From the NCBI GenBank assembly GCA_949128115.1, contig OX421965.1:34901681-34965680 (forward strand): DNA of 64,000 nucleotides, given 5' to 3'. Positions 7,089 through 64,000 of the stretch are shown in pieces. The translations under genes were made by a program, and so were the position numbers. Position 1 is the stretch's first letter. Each line of letters begins with the position of its first letter. A model generated the notes under the pieces. The model saw only the letters and a list, made by a program, of their open reading frames with translations, did no database searches and had not been told where the DNA came from. Source of the stretch: Anaspis maculata. Its lineage: Eukaryota; Arthropoda; Insecta; Coleoptera; Scraptiidae.

Positions 7089-10000
7089 ATGTCCCTCAGA
7101 CAGTTAGTGCAAAGTCGTGGTACTATTCGCGGAAAATTGACGCGGATCATGTCATTCAATGAAAGGTGTGATGCAAACACACCACTTGAGGAGATCGAGG
7201 AAAGGCTAGCCATGTTGCCAGTCATTCTCAAACAATACGAAGACACGCAAAATTCCATCCTGAGCACGGATGAAGTAACAGAAGCCGCGGTAATCGCAGA
7301 ACATGAACGGTTGCATGAAGTGTTTGAGAATGACTGGTACAAGGTCAAAGCCGCTCTGAATGAACGGAAAGGTTCACGAATTAGAGTAATTCAATCCGTG
7401 CCACCAACCAATGCGAACAATCAGCACTATAACGTCAAACTCCCTGAAATAAATTTGGTGGAGTTCAGCGGGGTTTATGCCAAGTGGCTCCCGTTCCATA
7501 ATTCCTTCAACAGTCTGATTCATGAAAATTCAAATTTGAGCAGCTGTTCAAAGTTCCATTATTTGAAATCGGCTCTTAAAGGCGATGCCCTTAAGGCCAT
7601 AGAAGCGATAGAGATTTCGGATGCAAATTATATTGTTGCGTGGAATCTTCTGAAAAGGAGATTCCAAAACAAAAGATTAATTGTCAACGATCATGTTCGA
7701 TCAATTTTGAATATCGCGGAGGTGCGCAAAGCCTCAGCCACCGCGCTATACGCACTGTTAAACGATCTAAAATGCCACCGTGAGGGTTTAAAATCATTCA
7801 ACATTCCTGTTGATGAATGGAACGCGATCATCGTACCTATAATGTCGAAAAAATTCGATTACGAAACGTTGAGGCAGTGGGAAAACACGCTGGATGACGA
7901 AGTTCCTACGCAGGACGCCCTCGTGGCCTTCCTAGAAAAAAGGTGTAGATTTTTAGAAGCGTTAAGTGACGCGAATTCTACTCCCAAAGGTATACCGCCT
8001 TTCGCACCAAACACACACCACCCTAAGATTGCTAACAATAGTAATTTTTCAAAGTTCAAATCGAGTCATGTGGCTACCGCGCAACGTGACAAGTTTCAAT
8101 GTTACTTGTGTAAAAAACCACATTCAATAGATTTTTGCCCAGAGTTTCTTCGATTAAGCATTGGCGACAGGGTTAAAAAGGCAAATTCGATGCTATTGTG
8201 CAAGAATTGCTTGCGTAAAAACCACGCAACGACCGACTGCCGGTCTCGAGCAAAGTGCTCCGAGTGCAATGAATCTGGTCACAATTATTTGCTTCATGAA
8301 GCCCATAAAAACACCAGTGTCTCCGCGACAAGTGAATCTAGCGAGAATGTCGCTACTCATTGTTTTGCCGACGCCAATGAAACCGTATTGTCCACTGCCG
8401 TGGTCCTAGTAGCCAACAATAAAGGTCAATGGATTTCGGGTAGAGCCCTGCTCGATCCTGGATCACAAATGAATTTTGCAAGCGCTGCGTTCATTAGAAA
8501 ACTCGAACTCAAGACCGCGGCAGCAAACCTCAGAATTTCGGGAATCAGTGGCGTAAACAGCGAGGCAAACCGTATGACACGCGTCAAGTTCAGGTCACGA
8601 GTCGAAGAATTCGAGGCCATGATGAGTTGCTGTGTTGTCGAGAAGATAACACAAAACCTACCGCGCGTCCCGCTCGGGAACGTTGGCGAAATCTCGCCCG
8701 AATTTCCCTTGGCTGATCCAACATTCTTCGAGACAAGCGCCATAGATTTATTGATCGGCGCGGAGTTATTTTGGCAGCTACTTCTTGATAAAAGGATAAA
8801 GATCGGCGACCCGTCGCTATTCTTGACCCATACTCGAGTGGGTTGGGTAGTTGGGGGTGCGACAAGCCTGAAGGGAAGCACGAAGTCGGCGGTCGCGACC
8901 TGCAATCACGCAGTCACGTCGCTGCAAGATGAGCAATTGAATACCACCCTGACAAGGTTTTGGGAGCAAGAGGAAATTCCTCATAAGCGAAACATTTGGA
9001 CAGCTGAAGAAATCGCGTGCGAAGAACATTTTGTGAAAAACTACCGGCGAAATGACCAAGGAAGATTTGTCGTGCGACTTCCGTTTAAAAACGAACAAAC
9101 GATTTGGAGCAATTCCTCGGAATTAGCTTTGCGCCGATTTAATTTGCTGGAAAAACGCTTTTCCAGAAACCACCAATTGAAATCTCAGTATTCCGCTGTA
9201 ATACAGGAGTATTTAGATTTGGGGCATATGGAATTAGTACCAGAAGTCGAAATCAATAATGAACGGTCGTACTATCTCCCACACCACGCTGTTTTCAAAT
9301 CTCTGTCCGAAAATTCTGTAAAAACGCGAGTGGTATTTGACGGAACCGCGGGAGGTAACAACGATTACCTTTCCCTCAATAAAACCCTGATGGTAGGCCC
9401 TGTGATACAGGATGATTTGTTGTCAATACTGCTGAGATTCCGCTCGCGTGAATACTCGTATGTATTTACTGCTGATATTAAGCACATGTACCGACAAATT
9501 CTTGTCGATCAAAGAGACACCGATTTCCAAAGAATATTTTTGAGGTTCCATGAAGATGAACCGATAAAAATTTATCGGCTGAATAGGGTCACCTTCGGTT
9601 TAAGCTCTTCGAGCTATTTGGCTGTTAGATGCATTCAACAATTGGCCCGAGACGTTGAGGATAAGTATCCCGACGCCAGTCTTGTAATACAAAGAGACGC
9701 CTACGTGGACGATATAATCGTCGCCAGTAGTAATTTACAGGAAGCTGTAAATTTGCAAAATGCAATAGAAGAAATATTTGCCCAAGGAGGTTTTGAACTG
9801 GCCAAGTGGTCTTCTAATCACCCAGTCCTTTTGGCAAATGCCGCACCAGACGATGTTGGTGCTAGCGTTGTAAATTTGAACATAAGCGGCATATCCAAAA
9901 CACTAGGTGTGTTTTGGGACCGAAACTCTGACAGTTTATTATTCAAGACAACCCCGATAGACACTTTCGGTTCAATAACAAAGAGAAAAATTCTCAGTCG

Positions 10001-37515: not shown

Positions 37516-38637
37516 TGAAGACCAACAAGAAGAGTCTCGTTGAGAGACGAGTGACTTGGTGCTTGTGCCGACGCATCAAAAACAACACAATTTTTTTGCA
37601 TTTCGCCCTCAACTTTGACAATTGGGTGGTGTGGTATTCCATATTGAATGTCAAAAAGCCGGCTAGCTCAACAGTTAGTGTGGATGTAGAGCCACACTTT
37701 CATTATTATAGGAGTCGAATGGATTCCAAACAGATTGTTTAAATTTTTTCTATGTGAAACTTCCAAGAAGATTATATAATTATGTATTATGCCGTTCACG
37801 TTTTAAATCCAGTGGAACGGCTTTTTGGAGAAAGAATAAAGTGACAAGCTGAAGGGCTACGGATAGCTCACATAACCAACTGAGAATTAACCTAGGAAAT
37901 GAAGACGATTATATTTAGAAAAAATACAGCGTACTACACTCTACATAAAATTAAATACCACACCTACAGAAATCCAAATGACAGGACTTTGGAAGTCGTC
38001 ATAAAAAACGTGCAAACATCCCTTTCAACTGAAGAAATAAAAAATCACCTCCTAACACTCGAGTTTCTGGTAAAATCAGTTACAAGACTTCAAAATAGAA
38101 GTGAAATACAATTACCTATATGCGCCATCTCGCTTCCAAGAAATGAAAAAGCTACTGATATCTTCAAACTCGACAAACTGTTCTATTCAATAGTATCTGT
38201 TGAACCAAGAAGAAAAACAGGAGAAACGCCTCAATGCCATCGCTGTCAATTATTTGGTCGTACTAAGAATTACTGCCAATTACAACCAAAATGCGTAAAG
38301 TGCTCAGGACAACACTCCTACAAAGACTGTAAAAAAACAGAAGACACCCCACTCACATGCTCAAATTGTGGAGAACATCATCCAGCAAACTACAGAGGAT
38401 GCAAAGCTTTCACAGAATACAAACGAAAGCAAGAGTCCCACAAATACTCTCGTCGAAGTCAAAATCTTGATGCCAACACCCGCTCAGAGAAAATGATTAC
38501 CGCTCGAACTGCAATAACAGCCAATAACATTTCCCGAACATCTTATTCTGATGCTACTAGAGAATATCAATACCAAAGATCCTCTACCACCAATACTACC
38601 CATCCTCTAAACTAGTTATCACAATCCCTAGTAGACA

Positions 38638-41503
38638 GCGTACATGACAACTTGACGCGGGACAACTTGACGCCGGGAATTTCAAAGTGGCCGACTTGAC
38701 GCCGGGACAACTTGACGCCAGGACAACTTGACGCGGGACAACTTGACGCCGGGACAACTTGACGCCGGACAACTTGACGCCAGGAATTTTAAAGTGACCG
38801 ATAGCCGACTTAGCGTCGGGACAACTTAACACCAGTTGGAGCTATAGGACCCCGAGTATTACATGAAGGCACAAAGGTGCTAAACTAAAGATACGAAAGC
38901 AAGGGGAAAACGCAAGGGGAGCCGGTAGACCTTCGAATACCAAAAAAGGCACAAGAGTGCTAACTAAATGTGAATGGAAAAAATGCAAGGGAGCTCAGCA
39001 GGGGTTCAAACACCATTAATTATTGGAGACACAATGGGGTCCAATGGGGCTATGAACAATACATGAAAGCAAAAGAGAGCTTTTTCGGCATATGAGGACA
39101 CAAGCGGACCAAGTAGGGCTTTAAATACAAGACGAAAACACAAGCGTGCTTTCGATTGCTTGAAAGCCTTTGAGACACGGAAAATTGCAAGGGGCAAGGG
39201 GGCTTATCAGGACTTCAAAAGACATTGAAGGCACAAGGGGGCTCAATAGTGCTTTGAATTACACAAGAAGGCAAAAGGGGCTCACAGGAATCCTACACAC
39301 GTGAAAAAACATAGAGAGACTCACCAGGGCTTCAAACGGTACTTAAGGTTGAGGACACACGGGGGCGCCAAATGTTACACGAAGGCACAAATGTGTTTAC
39401 TAAAGCTTCAAAAGCGACAGAAAAATGTAAGGGGACTCAGCAGGGCTTCAATCGACATTGAAGAAACAAGGGGGCCAGAAGGGCTTTAAGAATCAAAGAA
39501 GGCACAAGGCGGCTTATTACTGAAACTCTGGAGGGGCGAAAAATTATGGGGGGCTTAAAACAAAAGTGTCCAATTGGGCTCTGAATAAGGGTGCTTACAA
39601 CAACATATGCAGACATAAAGGGTTGATACTACGATTTCGAAAGCAACATGAACACTCAAGGGGGCTTATCAGGGCTCAAAATGACATATAAATACACAAA
39701 AGGATCCACTGGAATTTGGAGCTAACAAACTCAAGATAAAATGAGAGCCGCTTGACCTTCAAAACATAGGAAGACACTAGGGGGCTTCTCAGAACTCCGA
39801 GCACCTCAAGTGAACACAAGACGATTCATCGGGGCTCGAAACGACACAAAAAGACACGGGGGCTCATCGGGGTTCCGATTGCCAAAGAAGAAATCAAGAA
39901 ATACAAAATCTGAGAAAATAGATTGTGGCTCGATAGAGTTCCAAAAGCAACATGAAGACACAATAAGGGGGCTCGTCAAGGCTTGAAGCGACACATCAAA
40001 TTGTCCACGCGTTAGATTGTCCTGGCGTCAAGTTGTCCCGCGTCATGATGGCCGGCGTCAAGCTGTCCTGCTTCGACCAACTTGACGCCGGGATAACTTG
40101 ACGCCGGACGATTTGCGCCAGGGATTTTGTGAGAACAGAGTAAGGAAACATTCGAAGAAAATGACAAAACGCGACTCACCGGGAGTCGAAACGACACATA
40201 AAGATACAAGGGAGTTCACTGGGGCTCCGAATTACTCAGCAAAACACAATGGGGGCCTCTAGATCTTCAAAACACAAGAAGACATGAGCGGGCTCGCTTA
40301 GACTTCCGAAGACCTTGAGAAAACATCAAAGGGTTCATTGGGGACTCGAAACGACACAAAAGAACACAATGGGGGCCAGTAAGGCTCCAAAGTGGAGAAA
40401 AAAATACAAAGGGGCTCGATAGTGTTCCGAAACTGCCAAAAAAAAAATACAAAGAAGTCGTCGGGGCACAATACGGTACCTGAAGACACAAGGGGGGCTC
40501 CAATTGACACAGCAAGACATAATGGGTCGCTAGAACTCCAAAACATGAGAAAAATGAGCACGAGGGGGCTCGCGTTTTCCGAAAACCACAGAGAACATGA
40601 GGGGGCTCATCGTCAAAATGACACATAAAGACACAAAAAGGCCTATTGAAGCTACGATTGACAAAGCAAGGCATAATGTGGTATGGCGCCCTCTGAGGGC
40701 GCCATATAGGACTAGAAACATAAGAAGATACAAGGGGGTTCATCAGGGCCTCACACAGCACCACATGAAGACACGAGGAAGATTATCAGGTTTCAAAATG
40801 ACAAATACAGACAAAGAGGGTCCGTTGGATCTCCGATAAACGTAGCAAGACACAACAAGGACCCCTAGGATTCCACGACAAAATAGAAATTATTGCGGGG
40901 CTGGAAGCGTCACCATAGACACATGGCTCAGATTGACCCAGCAAGAAAGAATGGGGGCCGGCAGGGTTCCAAAGCACAAGAAGATACAGGGGGGCTCGAT
41001 AGAATTTAGAGCTTCACATGGAAACACAAGAAAGTCATCGGAGGGGTTATCAGGGTTCTTAAAAACACTATGGAAAAACAAAGTTGCTCCAGTGAAGTTT
41101 CGAAAACAACACGAAGACACAAGTAGGGGGCTCATCAGGGCTTGAAATGACACATGAAGTCGCATGGGGGCTGTGACTTCGAGTTATACAAACTTAGGTA
41201 ATTGGGACTCAAAAACATAAGACACAATATGTAGGCATAAGGGGCTTGCTAGTTCCGAAAAACCACAGGAAAACTCAAGGGGGCCAGTTGGGGGACAAAA
41301 AGACACAAACTGGCCAACTAGAGTCCCAAAATTATAATAACTCCTATAGTAAGTTGTTCTGGCGTCAAGTTGTCCCGCGTCAAATTGTCCTGGCGTCAAG
41401 TTGTCCCGCGTCAAGTTGTCCTGGCGTCAAGTTGTCCCGCGGCAAGTTGTCCCGCGTCAAGTTGGCCGGCGTCAAGTCGGCGGCGTCAAGTTGTCCTGCT
41501 TCG
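38638..41503. mobile_element. foldback-like element, two back-to-back units
   Basis: Both ends consist of short tandem repeats of a 14-16 base unit (gggacaacttgacgcc). At the left (38645-38830) it reads ggacaacttgacgcc, and at the right (41350-41500) ggcgtcaagttgtcc, so the ends are inverted. An exact 8-base duplication AGTAGACA lies outside both ends (38630-38637, 41504-41511). In the middle, at 40012-40115, a right-type end (gtcctgcttcg, to 40075) directly abuts a left-type end (ccaacttgacgccggg). This splits the insert into units of about 1438 and 1428 bases. The interior is a degenerate minisatellite. No transposase can be read. The architecture is that of FB/Galileo-like foldback elements; the superfamily cannot be fixed from this copy. 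Confidence 0.82.
38850..41335 (+). repeat. degenerate minisatellite forming foldback interior
   Basis: Units of roughly 40-60 bases follow the theme gaagacacaagggggctcat, cagggcttcaaaa, cgacacat, repeated dozens of times with heavy divergence. The pattern is broken only by the terminal-type repeats at 40012-40115. Strong strand asymmetry (A and G rich on the plus strand) leaves meaningless open frames on both strands. Confidence 0.75.
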
Positions 41504-41601
41504 AGTAGACACCATCCTGAAAGTCGTTATGGACCTCATAAAGCCACATCTTGAACAAATCAAAAACTCCCTTTTGACAAACCTACTTCCTATCCTTTTA
41601 A

Positions 41602-44287
41602 ATGGCAAATAATCTCGACCATACAATTAACAACATTAAGTTTCTCAACTTTAACGCCAATGGAGTAAATCGACAGCCCTCATCAATAATAATTTTTTTG
41701 AATCGTCACAACATCGATCTAGCATGCATCAGTGAGACTCACTTACATGAACAAGAAACTCTGAGAATACCTGGATATTCCATCTACAGATCGGATAGAG
41801 ACGCACCTACAGCCTCAGGGGATGTAGTCATCGTAATAAAAAGAAAAATTCCACATTATTCTATAGGAGAACTGAATCTGAACAGTCTAGAAGCAGTAGG
41901 AGTGATAATAACCGTACAGAGAGGAGTGAAAATCAAGATCATTGCTGCTTATAAGCAGCCTAACAAAAGATTACATAATGCCGATTTTGCTACAATATTC
42001 AGCAACCAGACACCGACTTTACTTATTGGCGACCTTAATTCAAAAAGTCAAACTTGGGGCTGTCGCGCCAACAACCCAGATGGAACTGTCCTGAACCATA
42101 CTGCAACAACACATGCCCTCGGAATTGATGCGCCGACAGAACACACATATGCACCATACTAACAAGACCGACTCTCAGATATCTTAGACATAGTGGTACA
42201 CAAAAATTTCACATTCCCGATACAGCAAGAGGTCTTACCAGAACTTGACTCTGATTATCTACCGGTGATCATAGCATTCACCAACATGACATACAAACCA
42301 CCAAGAGCAACAAAGCTAATACATGGCATAACTGACTGGGAACTTTCTAAAAGAAAACTAGACAACAAAATAAGATATCCTGAAATTCTACAAACTACTG
42401 AACACATTGATAAAGCCATAGAACATTCCACTTATTGTTTTGGAAACAGTATAAAAGAAGCCACAGTCAAGTGCGAAAATAGAAAACAGAAATACCCAAA
42501 AACACCCACAGCCATTCTTACCATGATAAAAGAGAAAAGTCGTATAAGAAGAGAGTGGCAAACGACCAGACAGCAAGCAACCAAGACACACTTGAACAAC
42601 TTGGGCCATCGTATCAAATACGAACTTGACAAATTGAACGTCGCTAGTTACAAAAAATTTATTGAAGATATGAGGCCCAACGACCCAGGACTATGGCGAA
42701 CAACAAGAAGAATCCTGCAGGAAGAAACCATTACACCACCCCTCATTAAAGACGTAGATATGAAGTACTGTTCGGACCAAGAAAAATGTAACATATTCTC
42801 CAAGCAGCTGGAGAAGACGTTCACACCTCACACCTCACATGCCTGGCTTCCACGCCCAAGTGGTAAAGTATGTTGAAAACCATACGCCTTCTGCAGACAA
42901 AATCGAGCCTACATCCCAACAAGAACTGATAACTGTCATAAAAAATCTACCGACCAAAAAATCACCTGGACCAGGCGGAATCCCCAATACTGTTCTTGAA
43001 AATGTGTCAAAAAAATTCCTAGCATTTTTAGCATCCACATTTAATGCTTGTCTGAGAATGGGATATTTCCCTGATGAATGGAAATATGCCCACATCTTGA
43101 TGTTTCTCAAGCCCGGCAAGGACAAAGCAAGACCGGAGAGCTTCAGGCCTATAAGCTTGCTAAACACACTGTCGAAGCTGCTGGAAAAGATCATCAAAAT
43201 ACGCCTGCATAGAGAATCACAGGGTCGCAGTATTATACCATCCATTCAATTCGGGTTCAGAAAAGGACACTCAACCAATCACCAACTTGCCAGAATAGTG
43301 GGAATCATCGAGCGAGGATTCGAGGAGAAAAAATACATCGTGGTAGCATTTTTGAACGTTTCTCAGGCCTTCGATCGAGTCTGGATTGACGGTCTGAAGT
43401 ATAAGCTAATCAAACTAAATCTACCCAAATATCTCCAAGCCATCCTGTTCTTGTTCTTGGACAATCGAACTTACCGGTTAAAGTGCAAAACGAGCTATCG
43501 ATATCGAGACAAATAGCAAGTGTCGCCCAAGGCAGTATACTTGGCCCAGATTTATTTAATATCTTCGTCCACGACATACCCAGCCAAGACAACATCGCTA
43601 TGTTCGCTAATGACACCGCAGTTATTTCTTACAACCCCGACTTGGACACTGCGATAGAGATGCTTCAGGACAGCGTGAACGAGGTGACCAATTGGTGCAA
43701 GAGATGGAGAATCGAACTAAATCCTACCAAGTGCGAGGCCAAATTTTCCACCCTAAGAAGAATTCGCAATCCACCTCACCTCTACGTATGCGGAAATGTT
43801 GTCCGATGGAGTCAAGAAGCAATCAAATACCTTGGCGTTCACTTGGATACCAAGCTGACTTGGGCTACCACATCAACAAAAAAATCAATAAAGGATACGC
43901 AAGATTACAAAAACTCCACCCGCTCTTGAATAAAAAGTCCTTTCTTCGTGTTGACTGCGGTCTGCTGATCTACAAATCCGTCATACGACCACTACTGACA
44001 TATGGCTGTTGCATTTGGAGCAATGCATCACAAATCAACATACGAAAACTCCAAATACTTCAGAACAAGATTCTACGAATAATCCTCGGCCCGCCATGGT
44101 ACATCAGGAATCAGCAGATCCATCACGAACCGGGTATTGACACGATCAAGAGACCAACGACCAACTTCCATAAGACCCTGACCTGAGCAACTGCCAGGGA
44201 GCCGTCCAGTTCAATTTTCGAGAAAGGGACATACACCGCAGACTCCGACGCGCACTCCCTCAAGACACACTCGACCCCAATGATTAG
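41602..44287 (+). pseudogene. LINE ORF2: endonuclease and reverse transcriptase, inactivated
   Basis: The start ATG at 41602 overlaps the end of ORF1 (ATGGCAAATAA). The apurinic-like endonuclease is readable (LNFNANGVNRQ, ISETHL, LLIGDLNSKSQTWGC). A stop at 42160-42162 interrupts it, and the frame resumes with SDILDIVV and SDYLPV. Reverse transcriptase follows in three frames: KKSPGPGGIPN, FRPISLLNTLSKLLEKII, FGFRKGHSTNHQL, FLNVSQAFDRVW, then AQGSILGPDLFNIFVHDIP and MFANDTAVIS, then LLTYGCCIWSNAS. Frame changes fall near 42850, 43490 and 43690-43930. Active-site residues are altered: FLN for the usual F-L-D, FAND for F-A-D-D, and SDY for S-D-H. The copy cannot encode active enzyme. Confidence 0.85.
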
Positions 44288-51330: not shown

Positions 51331-51615
51331 ATTGGAATGATGAAGGAATAACTTGGAAACGTCTTATGAGAAAGGCTCAGTGCTGCTGATTTGTTCGAGG
51401 CATTTCGAAGTAATGTAAATAAAATTTTCTCCACACTACTCCCAGGACCCGAGTCAGAACCTCGTTTTGGACAATGACATTTTGGAACACCACAATTTTA
51501 TCTTAATGGAAAGTGCTCGTAAGATGCTATTTGAAAATAAGATTAGGTGCACAATCTAGCAAAAACGTAAAGCGAAGAGCTGATTAAGTGTAATGTTCAA
51601 CAAACACTTTCCAAA

Positions 51616-52380
51616 CTTGTATTATTTTATCTCAAGTAAAACATTGAATATTTTTCTTGAAATTTTATTCTGTAGCTGAAATTAAGCACATGTCGTGGGC
51701 CTTATGCCCATACGTCTATGGCCCATACTCACAGTCGGTCTCCGATTTAAGCACAATCCGACTATGGCAAAAATTGTTATAATTGTCCCAAGGACTTGAG
51801 ACATGCGAAGTCGTAGATCGAGCGAAGTATTGACTATGAGTATGAGGATTAGTCAAGGCCGTGAGCAGAACTTGTATTATTTTATCTCAAGTAAAACATT
51901 GAATATTTTTCTTGAAATTTTATTCTGTAGCTGAAATTAAGCACATGTCGTGGGCCTTATGCCCATACGTCTATGGCCCATACTCACAGTCGGTCTCCGA
52001 TTTAAGCACAATCCGACTATGGCAAAAATTGTTATAATTGTCCCAAGGACTTGAGACATGCGAAGTCGTAGATCGAGCGAAGTATTGACTATGAGTATGA
52101 GGATTAGTCAAGGCCGTGAGCAGAACTTGTATTATTTTATCTCAAGTAAAACATTGAATATTTTTCTTGAAATTTTATTCTGTAGCTGAAATTAAGCACA
52201 TGTCGTGGGCCTTATGCCCATACGTCTATGGCCCATACTCACAGTCGGTCTCCGATTTAAGCACAATCCGACTATGGCAAAAATTGTTATAATTGTCCCA
52301 AGGACTTGAGACATGCGAAGTCGTAGATCGAGCGAAGTATTGACTATGAGTATGAGGATTAGTCAAGGCCGTGAGCAGAA
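51616..52380 (+). repeat. three tandem copies of a 255 bp unit
   Basis: Units start at 51616, 51871 and 52126 (cttgtattattttatctcaa) and are virtually identical. Copy 1 of the element has a single unit (about 49863-50117). The amplification happened after the two elements diverged, or was lost from copy 1. Confidence 0.95.
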
Positions 52381-52678
52381 ATTCTTGAGTTATTTGTTTC
52401 GTTTACAAAGTATAACCTACAAATTGTCTCATGTGCTCATGACTGTCATCTGTTTTGACGTCTGTCTATGATTTTGATTCGCGCGTACTCCCCGCATTTA
52501 AATTGCCGCCTTGGAAAAGCCGTTATGACCTAAAAATGGCGGACCCCATGCGATATCGGCTGAAATGGATGCGCAGTGGTTCTTCCTTCTTCTACTTTTG
52601 TCCTTGTCTATGCAACCCACTCACAGGAAACAGAGACTTACAAACAATATGAGTATAATACAAACATAGTGAACAAAC

Positions 52679-52986
52679 CGATGGGTCCTAATAAGACTAG
52701 CTTTATTCGCAGAGCCGGATGTGAAGTAACGTTTCTCGCAGGGCATCTTTGTAACTAGCGCTATTGAAAAGAGGTCGTTGTAACTGGCGCATCTCAAATG
52801 AACGCAAGTGAACTGGCGCAACTTCTATGTACGCGAATAGAAGTTGCGCCAGTTCACTTGCGTTCATTTGAGATGCGCCAGTTACAACGACCTCTTTTCA
52901 ATAGCGCTAGTTACAAAGATGCCCTGCGAGAAACGTTACTTCACATCCGGCTCTGCGAATAAAGCTAGTCTTATTAGGACCCATCG
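52679..52986. repeat. perfect palindrome, 150 bp arms, 8 bp loop
   Basis: The left arm 52679-52828 and right arm 52837-52986 are exact reverse complements by eye at all 150 positions, around gtacgcga. Outer bases read cgatgggtcctaataagac. AAAC occurs just outside both ends (52675-52678, 52987-52990), a possible 4-base target duplication. It is either a very young foldback element or a sequencing or assembly artefact. Confidence 0.9.
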
Positions 52987-55030: not shown

Positions 55031-55405
55031 TAACTGATCCATTTCAGACTTCTACGAGGTAGGTAACGTATGTGTTCCATCTCTTGGGCAGAAAAACCCA
55101 GCCTTCTATAATCGCTGGTCTTTGACGTGATTGCGTGCAAAAATTGCATCCACATGACACTTGACAGACCGCTGTTTGTTTCGTCCCAGGTTATGTTTTG
55201 GCGTGATTTTATTCAAAAAAATAATAATTCCCACAAAGCTGAAATTTGGTATACAGGCCTTGTAAGATCTCAGGAATAACATATCAAAATACTCGGTGAC
55301 ACACCCTTATGCGTCATTGATTGTGAGGGAGGAGGGTAGATATTGCCATTTTAAATGCGTAAAAATGACACCCTGTAGCTTATATAGGGTAACTCGGGGA
55401 GTGAT

Positions 55406-55649
55406 TGTTACGATCCCGTCATGAATAAGATTAGTTTTGCTTACTTAGCACCCTGCTGTTTATATATACGACTTCATGCAGTTAGCGCATATCACAATCA
55501 CAATTTTCTGTATCATGACCGAGTGCACGTCGCACGCATAAATTGTTGATCCGTTATTACGTTCTAAACTTGTACGAATTAAATTATTTTCACAGTTTAA
55601 TAAAATTAATATTTTTTAAAAAGGCTTTTTCAAAAACAAACACGTAAAA
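55406..55649 (+). repeat. 5' LTR
   Basis: Starts tgttacgatcccgtcatgaa and ends cacgtaaaa. Short inverted ends (TGTTACG / CGTAAAA) are present. A TATA-like tatatata lies near 55461, with an initiator-like cagtta about 20 bases later, and aataaa is near 55599. It is identical to the 3' LTR except for one base. Confidence 0.93.
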
Positions 55650-55650
55650 A

Positions 55651-55668
55651 TGGCGCAGTCGGTAGGAT
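55651..55668 (+). other. primer binding site, tRNA-Ser type
   Basis: tggcgcagtcggtaggat lies one base after the 5' LTR. It complements the 3' end of a serine tRNA (…CCTACCGACTGCGCCA), the primer known for the 17.6/297 group of errantiviruses. Confidence 0.8.
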
Positions 55669-55831
55669 GTTAGGCCCATTTGGCACAAATAATTTTTGAA
55701 AATTTTATACGTAAAAAAGTGTTAAGTGGTGTGCTCCAGCACTTCAGCCTAGCAGCCTACATCTGTAATCAAACCAAGGAAGCTCCAGCGGAACCTGTCC
55801 TGAAGTTCTCCGACGGCAACGATTTCCATCA

Positions 55832-55841
55832 AGTAGTAAGT
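55832..55841 (+). promoter_or_regulatory. candidate env splice donor
   Basis: caagta|gtaagt in the leader, before gag, matches a consensus 5' splice site. It could join the acceptor at about 60790 to make a spliced env message, as in gypsy-type errantiviruses. The pairing is inferred. Confidence 0.4.
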
Positions 55842-55956
55842 CTACTTATTTTTATAATCATCATTGTTTGTTTCGGGGTATTCCCCTTTCCATTTTATAT
55901 CCTTTTTATCTTGTTTAGTGTATTGATATTATATTATTTACCTGTGATAATTCGAA

Positions 55957-56922
55957 ATGGCTGAAGGTGATAACGAAATTCAACTCTCTTTGAGAGATCT
56001 TAAAGATTTAATTCCCTCATTCGATGGCGAACAAGCCTTACTGAATGATTTTATAGAAGCATGTAATTTTGCAACGGAAAACATCGAAGAAGGACAAGAA
56101 AATGTCCTTGTTTTTCTAATTAAATCCAAACTAACTGGAAAAGCTAAAACTTTCATATCCTCGAGGAATCTAACAACCTGGGAAGCAATAAGGCCCCTTT
56201 TAATAGGCCACTTTGGCGATTGTAGGGATACCGAAGCTCTCGTCAGAGACCTCACAAATTCTTTCCAAAAAACGACTGAAACAGCGCGAAGCTTCGTAAC
56301 AAAAATAGAAAATTTATTAACAAAATTAAGGTCGAGTGTTCGACTCGACGACGAAATTGACCCATTACATAAAAACACCTTAATCGAGTCACACGAAAAG
56401 ATCGGACTGAAAACTTTATTAGCCGGATTAAATGACCCCTTAGGTCAATTAATAAGAGCACAAAAACCATTATCCATTAGCGAAGCCGCCCAACTAATAC
56501 TTGAGGAAGAAAATATTGCATACCTAAGATCAACGCGCAGCAGTCAAAACAATACGAAAACATTTAAAAGCTTTCCACGACAAAATTACCATAACCAACA
56601 TGTTTCACCTCAAGCAGGACCGAGCAATTATGCTCATAATCCAAATCCACGACCAGACGCGAAATTCTGCAATTACTGCAAAAAACCTGGTCATTTAATA
56701 GTAAATTGTTTCAGAAGAATAAATAATTCGAGTCACAATAATGCAAATCCTCAAAATAGAAATTTTTCAGGTCAAAGTAATTTTCAAAATCGACCAAACA
56801 ATAATTTTTCAAACAATCCCACTCCTCGCGTAAATTATCTAAAAAACGAAGATGCGGAGCTGGATTCCCCGGACGTCCAGTCTCCTATAACCCAGACGCA
56901 CGTGAGCGAGTCCGAAATGTAA
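55957..56922 (+). CDS. gag: Gag polyprotein
   Basis: A 321-residue structural protein of the retrovirus-like particle. Residues 1-190 are mostly helical and fit the capsid region of Gypsy Gag (retrotrans_gag-like: LLNDFIEACNFA, LTGKAKTFISSR). An asparagine- and serine-rich C-terminal part carries a single CCHC zinc knuckle (CNYCKKPGHLIVNC, residues 238-251) for RNA packaging. The frame is intact, and the start ATG is the first in the frame. The end overlaps the pol frame, which lies one base back; a slippery AAAAAAC sits at 56841. Its integrity supports recent activity of the element. Confidence 0.9.
   Translation: MAEGDNEIQLSLRDLKDLIPSFDGEQALLNDFIEACNFATENIEEGQENVLVFLIKSKLTGKAKTFISSRNLTTWEAIRPLLIGHFGDCRDTEALVRDLTNSFQKTTETARSFVTKIENLLTKLRSSVRLDDEIDPLHKNTLIESHEKIGLKTLLAGLNDPLGQLIRAQKPLSISEAAQLILEEENIAYLRSTRSSQNNTKTFKSFPRQNYHNQHVSPQAGPSNYAHNPNPRPDAKFCNYCKKPGHLIVNCFRRINNSSHNNANPQNRNFSGQSNFQNRPNNNFSNNPTPRVNYLKNEDAELDSPDVQSPITQTHVSESEM
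56841..56847 (+). promoter_or_regulatory. candidate -1 ribosomal frameshift site
   Basis: In the gag frame the codons read CTA AAA AAC, so the heptamer is A-AAA-AAC, a classic -1 slippery sequence. The -1 frame stays open from here through the gag stop (56920) into pol, giving an in-phase Gag-Pol fusion. I did not identify a downstream pseudoknot. Confidence 0.65.
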
Positions 56923-56957
56923 TTTTAAATGCAAAGTCCCATGATAGCCAACACAAA

Positions 56958-59900
56958 ATGTTTTATATTCTAGACACAAAAAATAATTTTAAACTTCTTT
57001 TAGACAGTGGTGCCTCTATCAGTTTGATTCACCCAAATATTATTTCACCCGAAAGTAAAATCCAAAGCAAAGATATTCATATAACCGGGATTGAAAATAT
57101 TCCCGTACTTTCCAGTCATGTTTACGAATACCAAGTCGGTAAATTCAATTCGCACACAATGCATGTTGCACCTATCGACTTTGGATTATTCGACGGAATT
57201 TTGGGTATGGATTTTATTTTAAATTTCAATTGTGTTATCGATTTTCCTAAAAGAAAACTATTTTGTTCAATTCAAGACTATCCTGAAATTCAATTATTTT
57301 CCTATGCAAGGAACGGTGATACTTCTCTCACTACTTTAAATCATTGTGAATCCATTAATAAAAATAATACAAGAAACCCGGTACATAAACCGCGTATAAT
57401 CAACGAAGAAAATCGACAATTTCATACTCCCTCTGTGGATCTTAGAATTGCTAAAAAAGCAATAGAACCAAAGTGTTCAATCCAAGTCGATACTAATTCC
57501 TTTAAAAAATCAAATACTTCCTTCGGGAACCATTCGAGCTCCGCCGTGAGTCTCTCTAATAATAATAATCCTATAAATGGATCTTCTAATAAAAATACTT
57601 CTCTCAAAGTAGAGAATCAAAGAATAAATATTTCCGAGGCAAATAATAGCCTTAGGGTCGATTCAGATAAGAATCATTTAAATACTTCCTTCGGGAATTC
57701 TTCGAACTCCGCCGTGAGTTTCTCTAATAATAATCCAATAAATGGATTTTCTAATCAATTTTCAATCGAATTCATAAGAGGTGACATTTTAGATGCACCC
57801 AATAACATTCCAATTGGGCACGCAGTGTCTCAAGATTTTAAAATGGGCCAAGGCTTAGCAAGAAAAATTGCAATAAAATATCCACACAATACCGACGAGC
57901 TGCTAGCTCAGCAAAAGATAGTAGGACAAGTTGCTTATTCCTTTTTCTCGAGCGTAAATGAAACGCGAGAAATTTTTCATCTTATCACGAAGGAACGCTT
58001 TCAAGATAAACCCACGTACAATTCTATCAACACAGCATTAATGAACTTGCGGGTTATATGCGAAGAAAATCAAATCGCTGAATTAGCACTGCCAAAGCTC
58101 GGATGCGGTCTTGATAACTTTAACTGGAAGCACGTTCTTTCTATGATAAAAGAAATTTTTAATAATAGTCGGATTAAAATTTATATCTATGAGTTCGAAG
58201 AACCAAATACTACTTTGAAGAAAATTTTTCATATATCGCCTAGAACGATCGAGGTAGTTCAACTACCAGTAAAAATGAATTCATTCTCAAACAATAATGC
58301 TGATTCAACCTTTATATGTCCTGAACTAGAGATCAATGGAGTAAAGATTCCTAATTCCATCGTAAAGATAAATGATAACCAAATTATTACTACAATGTTG
58401 AACTCAAGCAATGAAATCAAGGAAGTTGAACTTCCTGAAATAATTCTTGAACCTTTCGAAACCTTTAACGTGAATAACTACAACGTCACTACTAATCACT
58501 CAAATAATATCGATCGAGAACAAAATATTTTAAACCAATTAAGGCTCGATCATCCTCATTTAGAAGAAAACGAGATCATTCACAAAGCTGGGAAATTAAA
58601 TAAAAATGCTGATGCACTTTCGCGTATCAGAATAAATCCAATCACAGCAAATCCATCTTCATCTCCAGATGAAGAAGACGAGTCAATAATCAATCGTAAC
58701 GAGACACCAGACTTAATTGATTTTGATGCAAATCCAGACTACGAATTCGAAATCGAATATAACAGATTTATTAACGAACAACCTTCAATAAATTTTGATT
58801 TAATAAAAGAGACAAACGACTATGTGACACTTGCTTACCACAAAAATATAATAGCATTCATTCCCAATAATGAAAATGAGGATACACCCCATATTGCAAC
58901 CTATGTCGCAGATACATGTACTACAGAAAGAAATTTGAATCTAACTGAAACGTTGACTATCAAAAATAGCTTAAAGGTCACTAATCGAAAATACTATTTC
59001 ATCAAATTGCCCGTAGACAATTTATCAAGACTTTCTCAAAAAGATTTATTCAGACTTCTCTACGAGATCAAAGAAAATTTAGAACCTAAAGAATATCATT
59101 TGAACAAGGTCAATCACCTACCATTGAAAAGAATTTTGAGTCATTTATTCAACGCTGATACTTTCAAATTCCATATTTGCCATGATATAATCAAATTGCA
59201 AAAAGACCTAACGCCTGAAGAAAAGAACGAAATAATGTCGAAATGGCATTCCTCAAAGAATAATTTACATAAAGGTATCAATGAAACATTTCGAAGAATA
59301 CGTGAACAACATTTATGGCCCAATATGAAAACAGATATAGAAGAATTTGTAAAACGGTGTCAGACTTGTAATCAATCGAAGATTAATAGGCAAAACACAG
59401 ATTTTCCCCTCGTAATTACAAAAACACCAGAACGACCATTTCAACACATAAACATGGACACACTAGACGTACATCCCCAGTTACATCTTCTGACAATTGT
59501 TGATAACTTTTCAAAATATGCACAGGCTTATCCAATTCCTAACAAACAAGCAAGAAGCGTTACTGATAAATTATTATTGTACTTCCAACACTACCCTGTA
59601 CCACAACGAATTCATGTAGATGCCGGAAGCGAATTTATGAACCAATCGTTCAAAAATCTAATCGAATTGTACGACATTAGACTAACTGTCAGTCCCACTG
59701 ATCATCCCCAATCTAATGGGCAAGTGGAACGTTTTCACGCCACATTGATGGATTCTATTAGAAGTTTCCACATCGATTATCCTCATAAACCTGTAGTTGA
59801 CGCACTACCTTTCGCTATAAAAACATATAACCTTAGTAAGTCAGCTTCAACCAAATTCACCCCTCAGGAAATTGTTTTTGGACATATTGATCCATCTAGA

Positions 59901-60278
59901 GATAATATTTTTACCAATGAAGCAGAACTTCAAGATGATTACCAGAGACTCATGAGAAATTACGCACAATATGTTAACAAAAAAGTCATTTCCAATATCG
60001 ATAGTTCCAAACAAAAATCAAAGGAACGTTTTGACAAACATGTAAAAGAAAATAGACCTCAGTACAAACTTGGTCAATCAGTGTTTTTAAGAAAACCATC
60101 AAGACAATCCAAATTGTCCCCCACATATCTTGGTCCCTACAAAATAACCAGACTCTTACCTCCGAATTGCGTAGAGCTACTAACTTCCAATAATAAATAT
60201 ATGACTGTCAACTTTGACCGGATAAAACCGTCAAATATAGAATTAGACGAAGACCAAGACCCAAATACCTCAGACTAG
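56958..60278 (+). CDS. pol: Pol polyprotein: protease, macrodomain, integrase; RT and RNase H deleted
   Basis: Numbering from the first ATG (the frame is open upstream and probably entered by -1 shift). Aspartic protease: LLLDSGASISLIH at 13-25, GILGMDF at 80-86. A polar linker at 115-267 contains a 27-residue repeat. A macrodomain spans 268-415. The usual pre-RT linker is at 425-535 (ISPRTIEVVQLPV, LPEIILEPFETFNV, QLRLDHPHLEENE). This passes straight into the RNase H tail GKLNKNADALSRI (545-557), so RT and most of RNase H are absent without breaking the frame. Integrase is complete: zinc motif around 764-804 (WHSSKNNLHKG, CQTCNQSK), catalytic D834, D888 and E924 (MDTLD, VDAGSEF, NGQVERFH), and a chromo-like C-terminus (YLGPYKI). 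The product could cut and integrate DNA but not make cDNA. Confidence 0.9.
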   Translation: MFYILDTKNNFKLLLDSGASISLIHPNIISPESKIQSKDIHITGIENIPVLSSHVYEYQVGKFNSHTMHVAPIDFGLFDGILGMDFILNFNCVIDFPKRKLFCSIQDYPEIQLFSYARNGDTSLTTLNHCESINKNNTRNPVHKPRIINEENRQFHTPSVDLRIAKKAIEPKCSIQVDTNSFKKSNTSFGNHSSSAVSLSNNNNPINGSSNKNTSLKVENQRINISEANNSLRVDSDKNHLNTSFGNSSNSAVSFSNNNPINGFSNQFSIEFIRGDILDAPNNIPIGHAVSQDFKMGQGLARKIAIKYPHNTDELLAQQKIVGQVAYSFFSSVNETREIFHLITKERFQDKPTYNSINTALMNLRVICEENQIAELALPKLGCGLDNFNWKHVLSMIKEIFNNSRIKIYIYEFEEPNTTLKKIFHISPRTIEVVQLPVKMNSFSNNNADSTFICPELEINGVKIPNSIVKINDNQIITTMLNSSNEIKEVELPEIILEPFETFNVNNYNVTTNHSNNIDREQNILNQLRLDHPHLEENEIIHKAGKLNKNADALSRIRINPITANPSSSPDEEDESIINRNETPDLIDFDANPDYEFEIEYNRFINEQPSINFDLIKETNDYVTLAYHKNIIAFIPNNENEDTPHIATYVADTCTTERNLNLTETLTIKNSLKVTNRKYYFIKLPVDNLSRLSQKDLFRLLYEIKENLEPKEYHLNKVNHLPLKRILSHLFNADTFKFHICHDIIKLQKDLTPEEKNEIMSKWHSSKNNLHKGINETFRRIREQHLWPNMKTDIEEFVKRCQTCNQSKINRQNTDFPLVITKTPERPFQHINMDTLDVHPQLHLLTIVDNFSKYAQAYPIPNKQARSVTDKLLLYFQHYPVPQRIHVDAGSEFMNQSFKNLIELYDIRLTVSPTDHPQSNGQVERFHATLMDSIRSFHIDYPHKPVVDALPFAIKTYNLSKSASTKFTPQEIVFGHIDPSRDNIFTNEAELQDDYQRLMRNYAQYVNKKVISNIDSSKQKSKERFDKHVKENRPQYKLGQSVFLRKPSRQSKLSPTYLGPYKITRLLPPNCVELLTSNNKYMTVNFDRIKPSNIELDEDQDPNTSD
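57510..57756 (+). repeat. direct repeat inside pol, before the macrodomain
   Basis: 57510-57589 and about 57680-57755 share aatacttccttcgggaa, ctccgccgtgag, tctctaataataat and aatggat(c/t)ttctaat. They encode NTSFGNxSxSAVSxSNNNPING twice. It is an in-frame duplication in a spacer that looks free to vary. Confidence 0.85.
57759..58202 (+). other. TARG1/OARD1-type macrodomain within Pol
   Basis: Residues 268-415 of Pol. FIRGDILDAPNNIPIGHAVS and QDFKMGQGLARKI carry the phosphate and adenosine loops. HLITKERFQDKPTY and LALPKLGCGLDNFNW carry the two residues that in human TARG1 act as nucleophile (Lys84) and resolving acid (Asp125). Here they are K345 and D386, the same 41 residues apart. TARG1 removes ADP-ribose from acidic side chains. 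A plausible role is reversing host ADP-ribosylation of element or host proteins; this is inference. The fold and the catalytic pair are seen in the sequence. Macrodomains are not a standard part of Gypsy Pol. Confidence 0.85.
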
Positions 60279-60780
60279 GTATTTAACAAATAATCCCTGC
60301 TGTTTTGGGACCTTTAAGAATAAAGCAGACGTAAATCCAAATGCGTGTCGTAAAAGGCGACTAAATAGGACTTAATACAAGAATTTTTGAAAAACTCTGA
60401 CGACGTTTGGCAGACGTCAACCATTATGTTCAAAGAACACCTTTTTCCCCATAATTATGATTATATACGCATAATTCTATTCCCTGTAAAACTGCTGGGT
60501 TTATTAACCGCCAAACCCCCGCCTCACGGAAAACATTTTAATTTTTTATTGCGGTCAAATTCAGATTTGCCCTGATATACAATTTTGGAAGTCACCAAAT
60601 TGTCCCTGTCATCTGAATAACATCTTAGGATTCAGACTGTAAAATCCTTCGGCTTTACCGAAAATTCAATTATAGTACGAATTTAGTAGTGTTAGCGATA
60701 ATTCCTAGGTTGGTTTATCGTATCAGCTAATTTCATAATTAAGAACTTTATTGTTTTATCTAGTCATCTGTGAACAAATA

Positions 60781-60790
60781 ATTGTTACAG
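60781..60790 (+). promoter_or_regulatory. candidate env splice acceptor
   Basis: attgttacag lies seven bases before the env ATG. It fits a 3' splice site for a subgenomic env message. Confidence 0.45.
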
Positions 60791-60797
60791 ATCCATC

Positions 60798-62750
60798 ATG
60801 GACAAGACTCCATCTAAAATCTTTATTTTCCTATTCCTCATTAATTTTTCTTATTCCAATATCCAAATCAAAGACCTAAACAATACCATAGGACTATTTT
60901 ACGAAAAAGAGAGAGAAATAAAAATAACTTCAGATATTTGGAAACTAGTAGTGTATAAAGACATTAATCACTTACAAGAAACGTACGAACATAATTTGCA
61001 AATTTTAAATACCCTAACAACTGTACTTTTGAAAGATGAACACGATGAAAATGTAAGATTTCGAACTTTTTCCCTTACGATAAAACCCCATCTTGATATT
61101 CTAAAAGCGATTTCAAATAAAATCGATAATATGTTAACAGAAATTAAATTCGAAACAATCCGAGTAAGACGAGGACTTGCAAACGGTGTTGGAACCGTAT
61201 GGAAATTTATAACAGGAAATCTAGATGCCTCCGACGGAGAATATTTTAGCAAATGTATAGACAAATTAGAAAGAGACGATTCAGAAATTCAAAACTTAAT
61301 TAAAGACCAAATTAAAGTCACAACAAGTACCATTCGAAATTTTAACGAAACGATTAGAAAATTACAAATTGACGAACAAACATTCAACGAAGATATGAAA
61401 GTAATAGAAAACGAAATTAAAACCCTTTTTGGGAGTCAAAAATATTTTGAGCATCAATTAAAATTGATGAATAATTGTGAACAACTTCTAGAATCATTCA
61501 CATTAATTTCAGAAGAACTTACTGATATAGTCAATAGTTTAACCTTTGCGAAATTAAAAGTAATCCACCCATCGATAATTAAACCTAGAAATTTACTCAG
61601 CGAATTGATAGACATCAATAGACATCTAACGCGAAATAACTTACCATTCAAACCCACTTTGGAAAATCTTCCCCAGCTATTAAATCTTTTTAAACTTCAA
61701 GCATTTCAGACAAAAAACAGGTTAATATTTGTAATAGTAATACCTTTAATAAATCAGGATACCTTCGACCTTTACCATCTCTACTCTGTACCAACCAAAG
61801 ATCCTTCTACAAACCTTTTCCATACTATCATCCCCGAATCAAAGATGATAGCATTATCAAAAGATAAGAGAACTTACATCAAGATCCATGACCTCGACAC
61901 TTGCCAAGAAATGGACGACAGAACCGCCATATGTCAAGATTTAATTCCTCTTGACTCGACCCAAGGACCATGTGAGGTCATCCTCATCACGACACTCCAA
62001 AACTCCGACAAATGCAAGCCACTAATTATGAATGTAATCAACCATAACATTCAGTACATCGGCAAGAACCAATGGTTACTAGTCTTACCATCAAAGTTGG
62101 CAATTACCTACACCTGCCCTAATCAAGGTACAACCACCAAACTTCTGGAGGGCAACAAACTCATCACGTTACAAAAACGGTGTAATGCATATACTGGCAT
62201 TTATCAACTATATGCTAAAGAAGAACGAACTTCCAACTATACAGAAGAGAACTTCATCCCTCAAATTCCATTCGAATGCTGCGAGGAACAAACATCAAAA
62301 GAAGAGTTCCATTTAAAACCACTTAAAATCAACCAGTTCAACTTGGACGACTTAAATGTCGCCGCTCACAAACTTGGCGAGCTTGAAGAAGAACTCAAAA
62401 CGTTAAATCAAGAGCCCTTCGCAACAAAGTACCTCAGCGCATCCACCATCTGGACCCTGACCATCTTTGTTATAATAATTGTAACAGTCATCTGCTGTGA
62501 ATGTGGCTGTTGCCGCCACTTCATTGGCTACATGAAAAGTTCACCTTCTAACAACCCCAGACCTGACGACAGGGGTTGCTGTGCAAAAATCTATAACTTT
62601 TGCAATATCAATCCAAAACCACACCGTAGAACATCTATTCACCAGTGGAACATCGAGTTGCAACCGACACTCGAACTACAAACTGAAGAGACGCCTCTGG
62701 AAGCCGCAGCCGTCTCAAGAAATACGAGGCAGCAAAGAAAAGCCTTGTGA
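60798..62750 (+). CDS. env: errantivirus-type envelope fusion glycoprotein
   Basis: An intact 650-residue frame. A signal peptide is likely at 1-20 (KIFIFLFLINFSYS). A furin-type site RVRR ends at residue 125, followed by GLANGVGTVWKFITG, the fusion-peptide region. Long helical heptad-like segments (about 150-240) and a cysteine-containing ectodomain follow. A transmembrane segment is at about 548-566 (TIWTLTIFVIIIVTVIC), with an 84-residue cytoplasmic tail rich in cysteine near the membrane. This order is that of the gypsy Env / baculovirus F family of class I fusion proteins, which sit on the particle or cell surface. It has no start codon in phase with gag or pol and is probably made from a spliced message. 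No break is visible. Whether it is functional cannot be judged from sequence. Confidence 0.85.
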   Translation: MDKTPSKIFIFLFLINFSYSNIQIKDLNNTIGLFYEKEREIKITSDIWKLVVYKDINHLQETYEHNLQILNTLTTVLLKDEHDENVRFRTFSLTIKPHLDILKAISNKIDNMLTEIKFETIRVRRGLANGVGTVWKFITGNLDASDGEYFSKCIDKLERDDSEIQNLIKDQIKVTTSTIRNFNETIRKLQIDEQTFNEDMKVIENEIKTLFGSQKYFEHQLKLMNNCEQLLESFTLISEELTDIVNSLTFAKLKVIHPSIIKPRNLLSELIDINRHLTRNNLPFKPTLENLPQLLNLFKLQAFQTKNRLIFVIVIPLINQDTFDLYHLYSVPTKDPSTNLFHTIIPESKMIALSKDKRTYIKIHDLDTCQEMDDRTAICQDLIPLDSTQGPCEVILITTLQNSDKCKPLIMNVINHNIQYIGKNQWLLVLPSKLAITYTCPNQGTTTKLLEGNKLITLQKRCNAYTGIYQLYAKEERTSNYTEENFIPQIPFECCEEQTSKEEFHLKPLKINQFNLDDLNVAAHKLGELEEELKTLNQEPFATKYLSASTIWTLTIFVIIIVTVICCECGCCRHFIGYMKSSPSNNPRPDDRGCCAKIYNFCNINPKPHRRTSIHQWNIELQPTLELQTEETPLEAAAVSRNTRQQRKAL

Positions 62751-62992
62751 ACAAACTTTGCAGTGCGCGAAGTGTTTAAAAGCAGAGCTTATACGAAGTG
62801 AAAAGTGTTCGTGACCCTAAAAGACACTTTCTTTTAATTTGTAATCTTTTAATTTTAAGTCTTTAGTACTTAACGATTTTGTTATTTCAGTTTTTAGCTT
62901 ACTTACCTTTTATGTCAATAATTTTATATTTTTAGAATTTTAAAAAATTTACCTCTATTTTTATTTTCAGTTCATTTTATAAAATTCTATCT

Positions 62993-63004
62993 AAAAGGGG
63001 GAGG
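62993..63004 (+). other. polypurine tract
   Basis: aaaagggggagg directly precedes the 3' LTR. This is where plus-strand DNA synthesis would be primed. Confidence 0.85.
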
Positions 63005-63248
63005 TGTTACGATCCCGTCATGAATGAGATTAGTTTTGCTTACTTAGCACCCTGCTGTTTATATATACGACTTCATGCAGTTAGCGCATATCACAATCAC
63101 AATTTTCTGTATCATGACCGAGTGCACGTCGCACGCATAAATTGTTGATCCGTTATTACGTTCTAAACTTGTACGAATTAAATTATTTTCACAGTTTAAT
63201 AAAATTAATATTTTTTAAAAAGGCTTTTTCAAAAACAAACACGTAAAA
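63005..63248 (+). repeat. 3' LTR
   Basis: 244 bases, matching the 5' LTR except for one position (atgaatgagatt here, atgaataagatt in the 5' copy). Followed by the TGAT target duplication. Confidence 0.93.
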
Positions 63249-64000
63249 TGATGGTGAATGTAGGTGAGATGGTGAATTGAGTTTTTTTCTATATGCAATC
63301 CACAAGGGCATGGTCGTGTGCATGCCTGCATCCTACAAAAGCAGCCTGTCAAAGGTACTAGTGCAAAGTTGTGGAGAATCCTCCGAAAATCTAGTAAATC
63401 ACGGAAGACGGCTGTGCGGAGTGCCGTGGTCGACCCTGAAGCAACAAGTCACAAAACACTGCCTAGAAAAAAAACCTTTTGGTCTAGGGTCTGTATTAGG
63501 AATCAAGAATGAAAGGGAAGTATTAGGAAACTTGTGCTGTATATCAAAAAGCTGCAGAAACATGGTTTCACGCGAGCAATGACAGCATTCACCAACTCGC
63601 CCAAAGGGTGTGGGTGAGATGGTGAATCAGACTTGTTTTTAAGAATTGCAATATTTAGTTTATTATCACAAATATTATACTTTCTTATTCTATATCTGTT
63701 AGTCATATGCACATATAAAACTTTGTAAAGTTTATACTGTTCAATTAAATTTCTTTGTAAAACTAGAGGCCTCTAATGTTTTCTTCACCATCACTCCCCG
63801 AGTTACCCTAAATAAAAAAAATCATATTTAGATGCCTCAATGTTTCATAATATTTGCTTGACGTTTGAATTGTTGAAAGTAGTTTGGGTTGCCTGGAAAA
63901 AAAAGAAGATCGGCAAAATTTATTTTGTTTTTCTCTCAAAAACCTCGAATTGATATCGGCAAGTGTGGTATCGTTTCCAACTAAATTTTGGCATCTGATA

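Follow-up and report, generated by a model that had tools for sequence, protein, structure and literature searches.

A TARG1-type macrodomain in the Pol of errantivirus-like Ty3/Gypsy elements of insects, probably an ADP-ribosyl hydrolase

Results

A macrodomain in the Pol of a long terminal repeat element of Anaspis maculata

We analysed a stretch of 64,000 nucleotides of Anaspis maculata contig OX421965.1 (hereafter the window, which also supplies all coordinates), in which positions 55406-63248 are occupied by a long terminal repeat (LTR) element of 7843 bp with gag, pol and env frames, and found that its pol frame encodes a macrodomain resembling human TARG1. The element has the LTRs, short target site duplication, tRNA primer site and baculovirus F-like env of Ty3/Gypsy errantiviruses, and is classed here as errantivirus-like because of its Baculo_F-type env and overall layout. 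The succession of protease, reverse transcriptase (RT), RNase H and integrase expected of such a Pol is incomplete in the window copy and complete in sister copies of the same family (family A; L009-L011), where protease is followed by macrodomain, RT, RNase H and integrase. The features of the window element, with open reading frames (ORFs) given in amino acids (aa), are:

55402-55405 (left) and 63249-63252 (right): target site duplication TGAT
55406-55649, + strand: 5' LTR, 244 bp, with a single difference from the 3' LTR
55651-55668, + strand: primer binding site TGGCGCAGTCGGTAGGAT, directly 3' of the 5' LTR, which we take to be of the tRNA-Ser type
55957-56922, + strand: gag ORF, 321 aa (Pfam Retrotrans_gag E 0.0025, below cut-off)
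56958-60278, + strand: pol ORF, 1106 aa, open, RT-less
56985-57218, + strand: aspartic protease (gag-asp_proteas E 3.5e-4, below cut-off, and a DSG motif)
57512-57734, + strand: low-complexity linker between protease and macrodomain, with a 55-nt unit at 57512 and 57680 (168 nt apart), 91% alike
57759-58202, + strand: TARG1-type macrodomain (K345 codon 57990-57992, D386 codon 58113-58115)
58203-58571, + strand: pre-RT linker, with 98% identity to an RT-bearing copy of family A
58572-58579, + strand: deletion junction, an 8-bp near-repeat, where 1317 bp, or 439 codons, are missing, comprising RT and most of RNase H
58580-58628, + strand: RNase H C-terminal remnant, assigned by its place in RT-bearing copies and by the motif HKAGKLNKNADALSRI, which we take to mark the RNase H C-terminus
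58629-59216, + strand: RNase H-integrase spacer, of which about 58842-59186 is a probable decayed second macrodomain (hhalign)
59214-59708, + strand: integrase (Pfam; zinc-binding 59214-59384, core 59430-59708)
60798-62750, + strand: env ORF, 650 aa (Pfam Baculo_F, E 1.7e-48)
63005-63248, + strand: 3' LTR, 244 bp

The macrodomain comprises Pol residues 265-415 (translated from 57750-58202). A phmmer search against PDB chains gave seven matches to E 0.01, the best five all being human TARG1 (C6orf130; E 6.3e-27 to 9.2e-27) and the remaining two DarG macrodomains, and the domain is 37% identical to human TARG1 over 139 columns. The first-pass annotation of the window had recognised a TARG1-type macrodomain by its motifs, and the translation and PDB matches bear this out: the order is GD, HAVSQDFKMGQG, LITK, KPTY, GCGLD, and the catalytic lysine and aspartate are in register as K345 and D386 (residues 81 and 122 of the searched piece), 41 residues apart and both present in 40/40 further family A copies. 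The profile search which that annotation had proposed places the window Pol above the Pfam Macro cut-off (PF01661, E 1.2e-5, 25.7 bits versus 22); the NCBIfam DarG equivalog cut-off was missed by the window macrodomain (59 bits versus 250). The predicted structure has a macrodomain fold, with DarG as second-best structural match after TARG1, TARG1 chains rank first and ahead of other macrodomains in all seven PDB searches with element macrodomains, and the top match in BFVD is Kadipiro virus VP8. The open frame and the Baculo_F env also agree with the earlier placement of the domain, in phase between the protease and the pre-RT linker of a Gypsy/errantivirus element. The gag, protease, integrase and env frames are open as that annotation described, but the copy has lost RT and the greater part of RNase H.

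The window copy belongs to an RT-less subfamily of family A

Pfam at E 10 found no match in 58203-59201 of the window copy, so neither RT nor RNase H is present there, and alignment with the RT-bearing sister L010 places the 1317-bp in-frame deletion at the 8-bp near-repeat. When the 758-Mb assembly was searched with the window macrodomain and the best 150 of 422 candidate places were scored, 70 rows on nine contigs were assigned to family A (hand count, 85-100% identity), of which 61 are stop-free. These 70 rows rule out a single-locus accident, and together with the carriers in other species described below they speak against the two ways in which the first-pass annotation thought it might be wrong, namely a domain confined to one locus or an assembly error in its frame. 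Forty family A copies were fetched with 2.45 kb each, being the rows after the window's own, best-scoring first, a sample biased toward the window's type; an RT match was found in 18/40 and was lacking from the 2.45 kb fetched in 22/40, and 12 of these 22 have the window's deletion junction (at most 2 mismatches in 42 bases). A deletion has left the window copy non-autonomous, and it is a member of an RT-less subfamily which has spread, presumably by using the machinery of RT-bearing sisters. In longer open family A frames the macrodomain starts at residue 315, 317 or 373, with a step of 56 codons or 168 nt, and the length of the protease-macrodomain linker seems to vary by this 168-nt step of the duplicated unit.

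Seven macrodomain-carrying families in one genome

With a second genome search, in which family D was the query and the best 150 of 476 places were scored, the fetched loci comprise at least seven macrodomain-carrying Gypsy families (A-G) with three positions of the domain in Pol. The order is protease-macrodomain-RT in families A and F, RNase H-macrodomain-integrase in families B, C and E, and macrodomain-protease-RT in families D and G (the protease of F and of G identified by Pfam). The junctions on either side of the window's domain, which the first-pass annotation had suggested tracing through other genomes, recur as an arrangement in families A and F but were seen only there, the other carriers differing in position. 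Frames in families A, B, C, D and G span 1341 to 1653 aa with a stop-free domain, and places resembling family E by their scores have frames of 1482 aa; many copies are therefore young. As the RTs of families A and B are 61% identical, whereas their macrodomains are 38% identical and differently placed, a move or a fresh acquisition of the domain probably took place after these families separated. A genome search with human TARG1 as query (best 150 of 476 places scored) returned many places coinciding with element macrodomains, and no intron-split host TARG1 gene was singled out among them, although not all places were checked.

Macrodomain-carrying Pol proteins in other insects

The protein database was searched with a family B Pol piece (RNase H end and macrodomain), which gave 1468 matches at E 1e-5, of which 120 were listed; counts over these 120 stem from a macrodomain-containing query and favour carriers, and are not natural frequencies. 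Domains were called with a profile of the genome's macrodomains and human TARG1 at E 1e-3. The macrodomain was found in 70 of the 120 homologous Pol proteins, and in 58 of these 70 both K and D are kept in the aligned columns, some being otherwise altered in the motif. It lies between RNase H and integrase in 49 carriers, after RNase H without an integrase match in nine, after integrase in 11 and before RT in a single one (P0011, with the domain ahead of the protease motif); the place C-terminal to integrase is a fourth position in Pol, unlike the three of the genome families. Carriers include proteins of Harmonia axyridis, Rhynchophorus ferrugineus and Photinus pyralis and the Lampyris noctiluca errantivirus 1 (beetle hosts), of Athalia rosae and Neodiprion virginianus (sawflies) and Uroleucon formosanum (an aphid), and of Plutella xylostella, Parnassius mnemosyne and Arctia plantaginis (Lepidoptera), the GCGLD motif being lost in the last three and in Photinus. 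One further protein, P0035, is labelled as from a Brevinema metagenome-assembled genome and has an RT and two macrodomains (484-622 and 660-786); it is probably a misbinned animal sequence.

In the Pol of Lampyris noctiluca errantivirus 1 the TARG1-like domain is at 472-612, between RNase H and integrase, and PDB searches placed TARG1 first both for this piece (E 8.6e-20) and for that of P0036, where the domain follows integrase (E 3.6e-40). When five database Pols were scanned with Pfam Macro, P0048 and P0009 were missed and P0053 scored under the cut-off, and this insensitivity may be the reason why the domain was overlooked. Only the family B piece retrieved relatives from the protein database: the window Pol as query found none among 387 candidates at E 0.001, the window macrodomain alone found nothing among 11 candidates, and with the latter neither viral nor prokaryote contigs yielded anything. 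A search with the family alignment gave 80 viral-contig loci, none with an RT or integrase like the element's at tblastn E 1e-3.

Repeated change of position, and a possible relic domain

A tree of RT sequences with 114 rows (the seven families and 107 of the 120 listed proteins, 13 being left out because their RT match was shorter than 350 residues) was built by a quick search, with support from SH-aLRT only. Carriers with the domain after RNase H and no integrase match were counted in the RNase H-integrase class; P0053, which lacks an integrase match, was labelled separately by hand, and this accounts for one of 15 changes. The tree requires a minimum of 15 changes for position and presence combined and of eight for presence alone, counts which do not separate gains from losses. 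The sister of family A is P0012 (support 96), in which the macrodomain is between RNase H and integrase. The tree of the macrodomains is built on few columns and leaves many forks open; as human TARG1 is placed among the element domains in this poorly resolved tree, it neither demonstrates a single origin nor excludes one. These comparisons suggest that the macrodomain was repeatedly acquired, or moved, across insect errantivirus-like Pols. Within the RNase H-integrase class the domain ends 4-11 residues ahead of the integrase match in 28/49 proteins, starts 3-82 residues past the RNase H match and at least 130 residues from integrase in 17/49, and is between these in 4/49. Two proteins, P0010 and P0014, have two macrodomains each, the integrase-side copy being decayed (second hits to the hidden Markov model at 3.7e-14 and 1.6e-8).

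The RNase H-integrase spacer of the window element itself resembles a macrodomain over about 58842-59186, with an hhalign score of 28.2 that 0/120 shuffles reach (maximum 17.6); 33/34 real control pieces score at most 17.9, and the 34th holds its own macrodomain. The hhalign probability is 26-37% against three profiles and 3-15% once P0012 is added, and an AlphaFold model of the spacer (pLDDT 44.6) is uninformative. From these profile comparisons, family A likely carries a relic as well as a complete macrodomain. A spacer that is a decayed macrodomain also holds for P0010 and P0014, which drive the high hhalign score of a five-row group, so that this score is no evidence for the window spacer.

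Profile and hhalign tests did not support the idea that classical errantiviruses generally have a decayed macrodomain as their spacer: none of the 50 macrodomain-less listed proteins was recruited by an iterated profile, the probability for seven clades of spacers did not exceed 5% and was thus no higher than that of reversed controls (up to 6.6%), the best score among 49 spacers taken singly was 19.6, and the spacers of P0005, P0007, P0009, P0013, a seven-protein group with P0048 and family B gave nothing.

Selection on the macrodomain

Among 41 family A copies the variants shared between copies comprise 7 nonsynonymous and 10 synonymous changes in the macrodomain (site-normalised ratio 0.18), and the singletons 16 nonsynonymous and 14 synonymous changes plus 2 stops (ratio 0.30); for all 47 variants without the stops p is 7e-6 to 6e-4, depending on the transition weight. 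In the 13 RT-less copies with the window's type of junction the shared counts are 2 nonsynonymous and 7 synonymous, which would fit either constraint that persisted once RT was lost or exchange between copies. In the comparison of families D and G (L149 versus L021) the macrodomain is 57% identical, with dN 0.35 and dS beyond estimation, and the RT/RNase H piece 87%, the protease 63% and the linker 59%. The comparison of synonymous and nonsynonymous changes across copies, as proposed in the first-pass annotation, thus points to purifying selection, and the data indicate that divergence of the macrodomain nevertheless outpaces that of RT, as does divergence of protease and linker between D and G.

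Other features of the window

At 7089-11477 (+ strand) a 1462-aa open frame has matches to DUF1759, a Pao-type peptidase (Peptidase_A17, E 2.4e-48) and RVT_1, with no Macro match among the matches listed, and is a BEL/Pao element. The region 37899-44186 contains PRE_C2HC, endonuclease and RVT_1 pieces and looks like pieces of a non-LTR retrotransposon; within it, the 15/31-bp tandem repeats at 38646-38785 and 41351-41496 share one motif, oppositely oriented. A run of three identical 255-bp tandem units occupies 51614-52383, related units being present from 50000 on, and a perfect inverted repeat (150-nt arms, 8 nt between) at 52679-52986 is either a hairpin-type element or an assembly artefact.

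Discussion

We consider it probable that insect Ty3/Gypsy (errantivirus-like) Pols contain a genuine TARG1-type ADP-ribosyl hydrolase, which was acquired or moved several times, is kept by selection and erases host-added ADP-ribose. The grounds for this are homology, the predicted fold, the catalytic residues, the spread over multiple families and species and the signs of purifying selection, as read from sequences and a structural model. Made together with Pol, the domain would be packaged in particles beside RT and integrase, where cleavage by the protease might release or tether it. There it could remove ADP-ribose put by host PARP-type transferases on the element's Pol and Gag proteins or, alternatively, ADP-ribose on its single-stranded or unligated cDNA, which would let reverse transcription and integration proceed; being carried in Pol, the domain would reach the sites of nascent cDNA and Pol proteins. 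In the RT-less subfamily the domain, which is open in most copies, would ride on RT-bearing sisters and could serve them.

A counter-PARP role is plausible. TARG1, for which a catalytic lysine 84 and a lysyl-ADP-ribose linkage are described, strips ADP-ribose from Glu/Asp and, like DarG, from thymidine in DNA, a K84A mutant giving no rescue (PMC8501950), and it removes PARP1-dependent ADP-ribosylation from single-stranded and from unligated telomere DNA (PMC11102865). In flies lacking PARP-1, 5/8 significantly misregulated mobile elements rise, and ten more, nine of them of the gypsy superfamily, rise but miss the false-discovery threshold (PMC7712786).

Several points weigh against the hydrolase reading. 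We infer enzymatic activity, packaging, substrate and benefit from sequence, and the link between gypsy elements and PARP in the fly data is statistically weak. The domain is absent from 50 of the 120 listed Pol proteins, often near relatives of carriers, and hence dispensable in some settings. Identity to TARG1 is 37% in families A and F, the lowest of those compared, versus 45-51% in B, C, D and E, and in family F AAGSD replaces GCGLD. Variants in family A are few, and constraint is weaker on its macrodomain than on RT/RNase H: the shared ratio for the latter is 0.04 (14 RT-bearing copies), versus 0.30 for the macrodomain of the same 14 copies and 0.18 for all 41.

Alternatively, the domain might read ADP-ribose and not erase it, binding it (or serving as a structural tether) and so guiding integration complexes towards DNA breaks or PARylated chromatin, much as chromodomains steer integration in chromoviruses. 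The close approach to integrase of 28/49 domains in the RNase H-integrase class, the 11 of 120 listed proteins with the domain C-terminal to integrase and the persistence beside integrase of versions with an altered catalytic motif (for example P0081, P0109 and the second copies in P0010 and P0014) would fit such a reader, for which there is a parallel in the dUTPase-related protein of bovine immunodeficiency virus, still needed although without dUTPase activity (PMC4261571). A pure reader would not need the catalytic K and D that most carriers keep, however, and families A, D, F and G have the domain well away from integrase, so that we regard this alternative as unlikely. Less likely again is that a captured host TARG1 fragment, useless to the element, was amplified by hitchhiking: endogenous retroviruses are known to capture host genes (PMC4299795) and the subfamily to which the window copy belongs itself arose by deletion, but several lineages, four positions, retained catalytic residues and a low dN against a saturated dS between families D and G are not what a passenger would leave. 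An assembly or annotation artefact fusing a host gene to a retroelement is refuted by the 70 family A rows on nine contigs, the target duplication on both sides and fusions of the same kind in other species and sources. A more far-reaching version of the hydrolase reading, in which an integrase-adjacent TARG1-type domain was ancestral to a large errantivirus lineage, decayed to spacer and was repeatedly replaced at new positions in Pol, with family A keeping both domains and with ADP-ribose on the element's own cDNA as substrate along a long insect-errantivirus front, is put forward here tentatively, and we hold it to be doubtful.

The closest known system is human TARG1 (OARD1, C6orf130), which is like the element domains in fold, is their best PDB match, has its catalytic pair likewise 41 residues apart (the aspartate being D125) and shares 37-51% identity with them; it differs in being a free-standing host enzyme, whereas the element version forms part of Pol. 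DarG, from the DarTG toxin-antitoxin system, is an eraser of ADP-ribose on DNA and the second-best structural match, although the element domain is far under the DarG cut-off. Among LTR retroelements, macro domain ORFs in teleost fish epsilon-like endogenous retroviruses were reportedly described by Basta et al. in 2009. According to a review, some fish epsilon-like retroviral sequences include macro domain protein ORFs as additional ORFs (PMC4977317), likewise a capture by an LTR retroelement, but by vertebrate retroviruses. The dUTPase of retroviruses and endogenous retroviruses is an accessory enzyme that only some lineages have and whose place in Pro/Pol differs among them (PMC4299795), the same pattern with a different enzyme and substrate. 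For Lampyris noctiluca errantivirus 1, RT/RNase H and integrase were reported from HHpred (PMC7093385, in the part available); it shares the TARG1-like domain with the window element, in the RNase H-integrase and not the protease-RT position. Macrodomains are likewise present in RNA viruses (alphaviruses, insect virga-like viruses and, in VP8, Kadipiro virus). No report of a macrodomain in insect Gypsy Pol was found in the open-licence literature searched, an earlier mention elsewhere being possible, and the term 'macro' does not occur in the main text of two papers on insect endogenous retroviruses (PMC12992720 and PMC13172572).

If the hydrolase reading is true, an eraser of ADP-ribose would join the short list of accessory enzymes in the Pol of LTR retroelements, and its repeated acquisition or relocation would resemble that of dUTPase in vertebrate retroviruses. 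It also raises a testable question, whether insect PARP-type enzymes restrict retroelements through modification of the elements' proteins or cDNA, and whether the elements answer.
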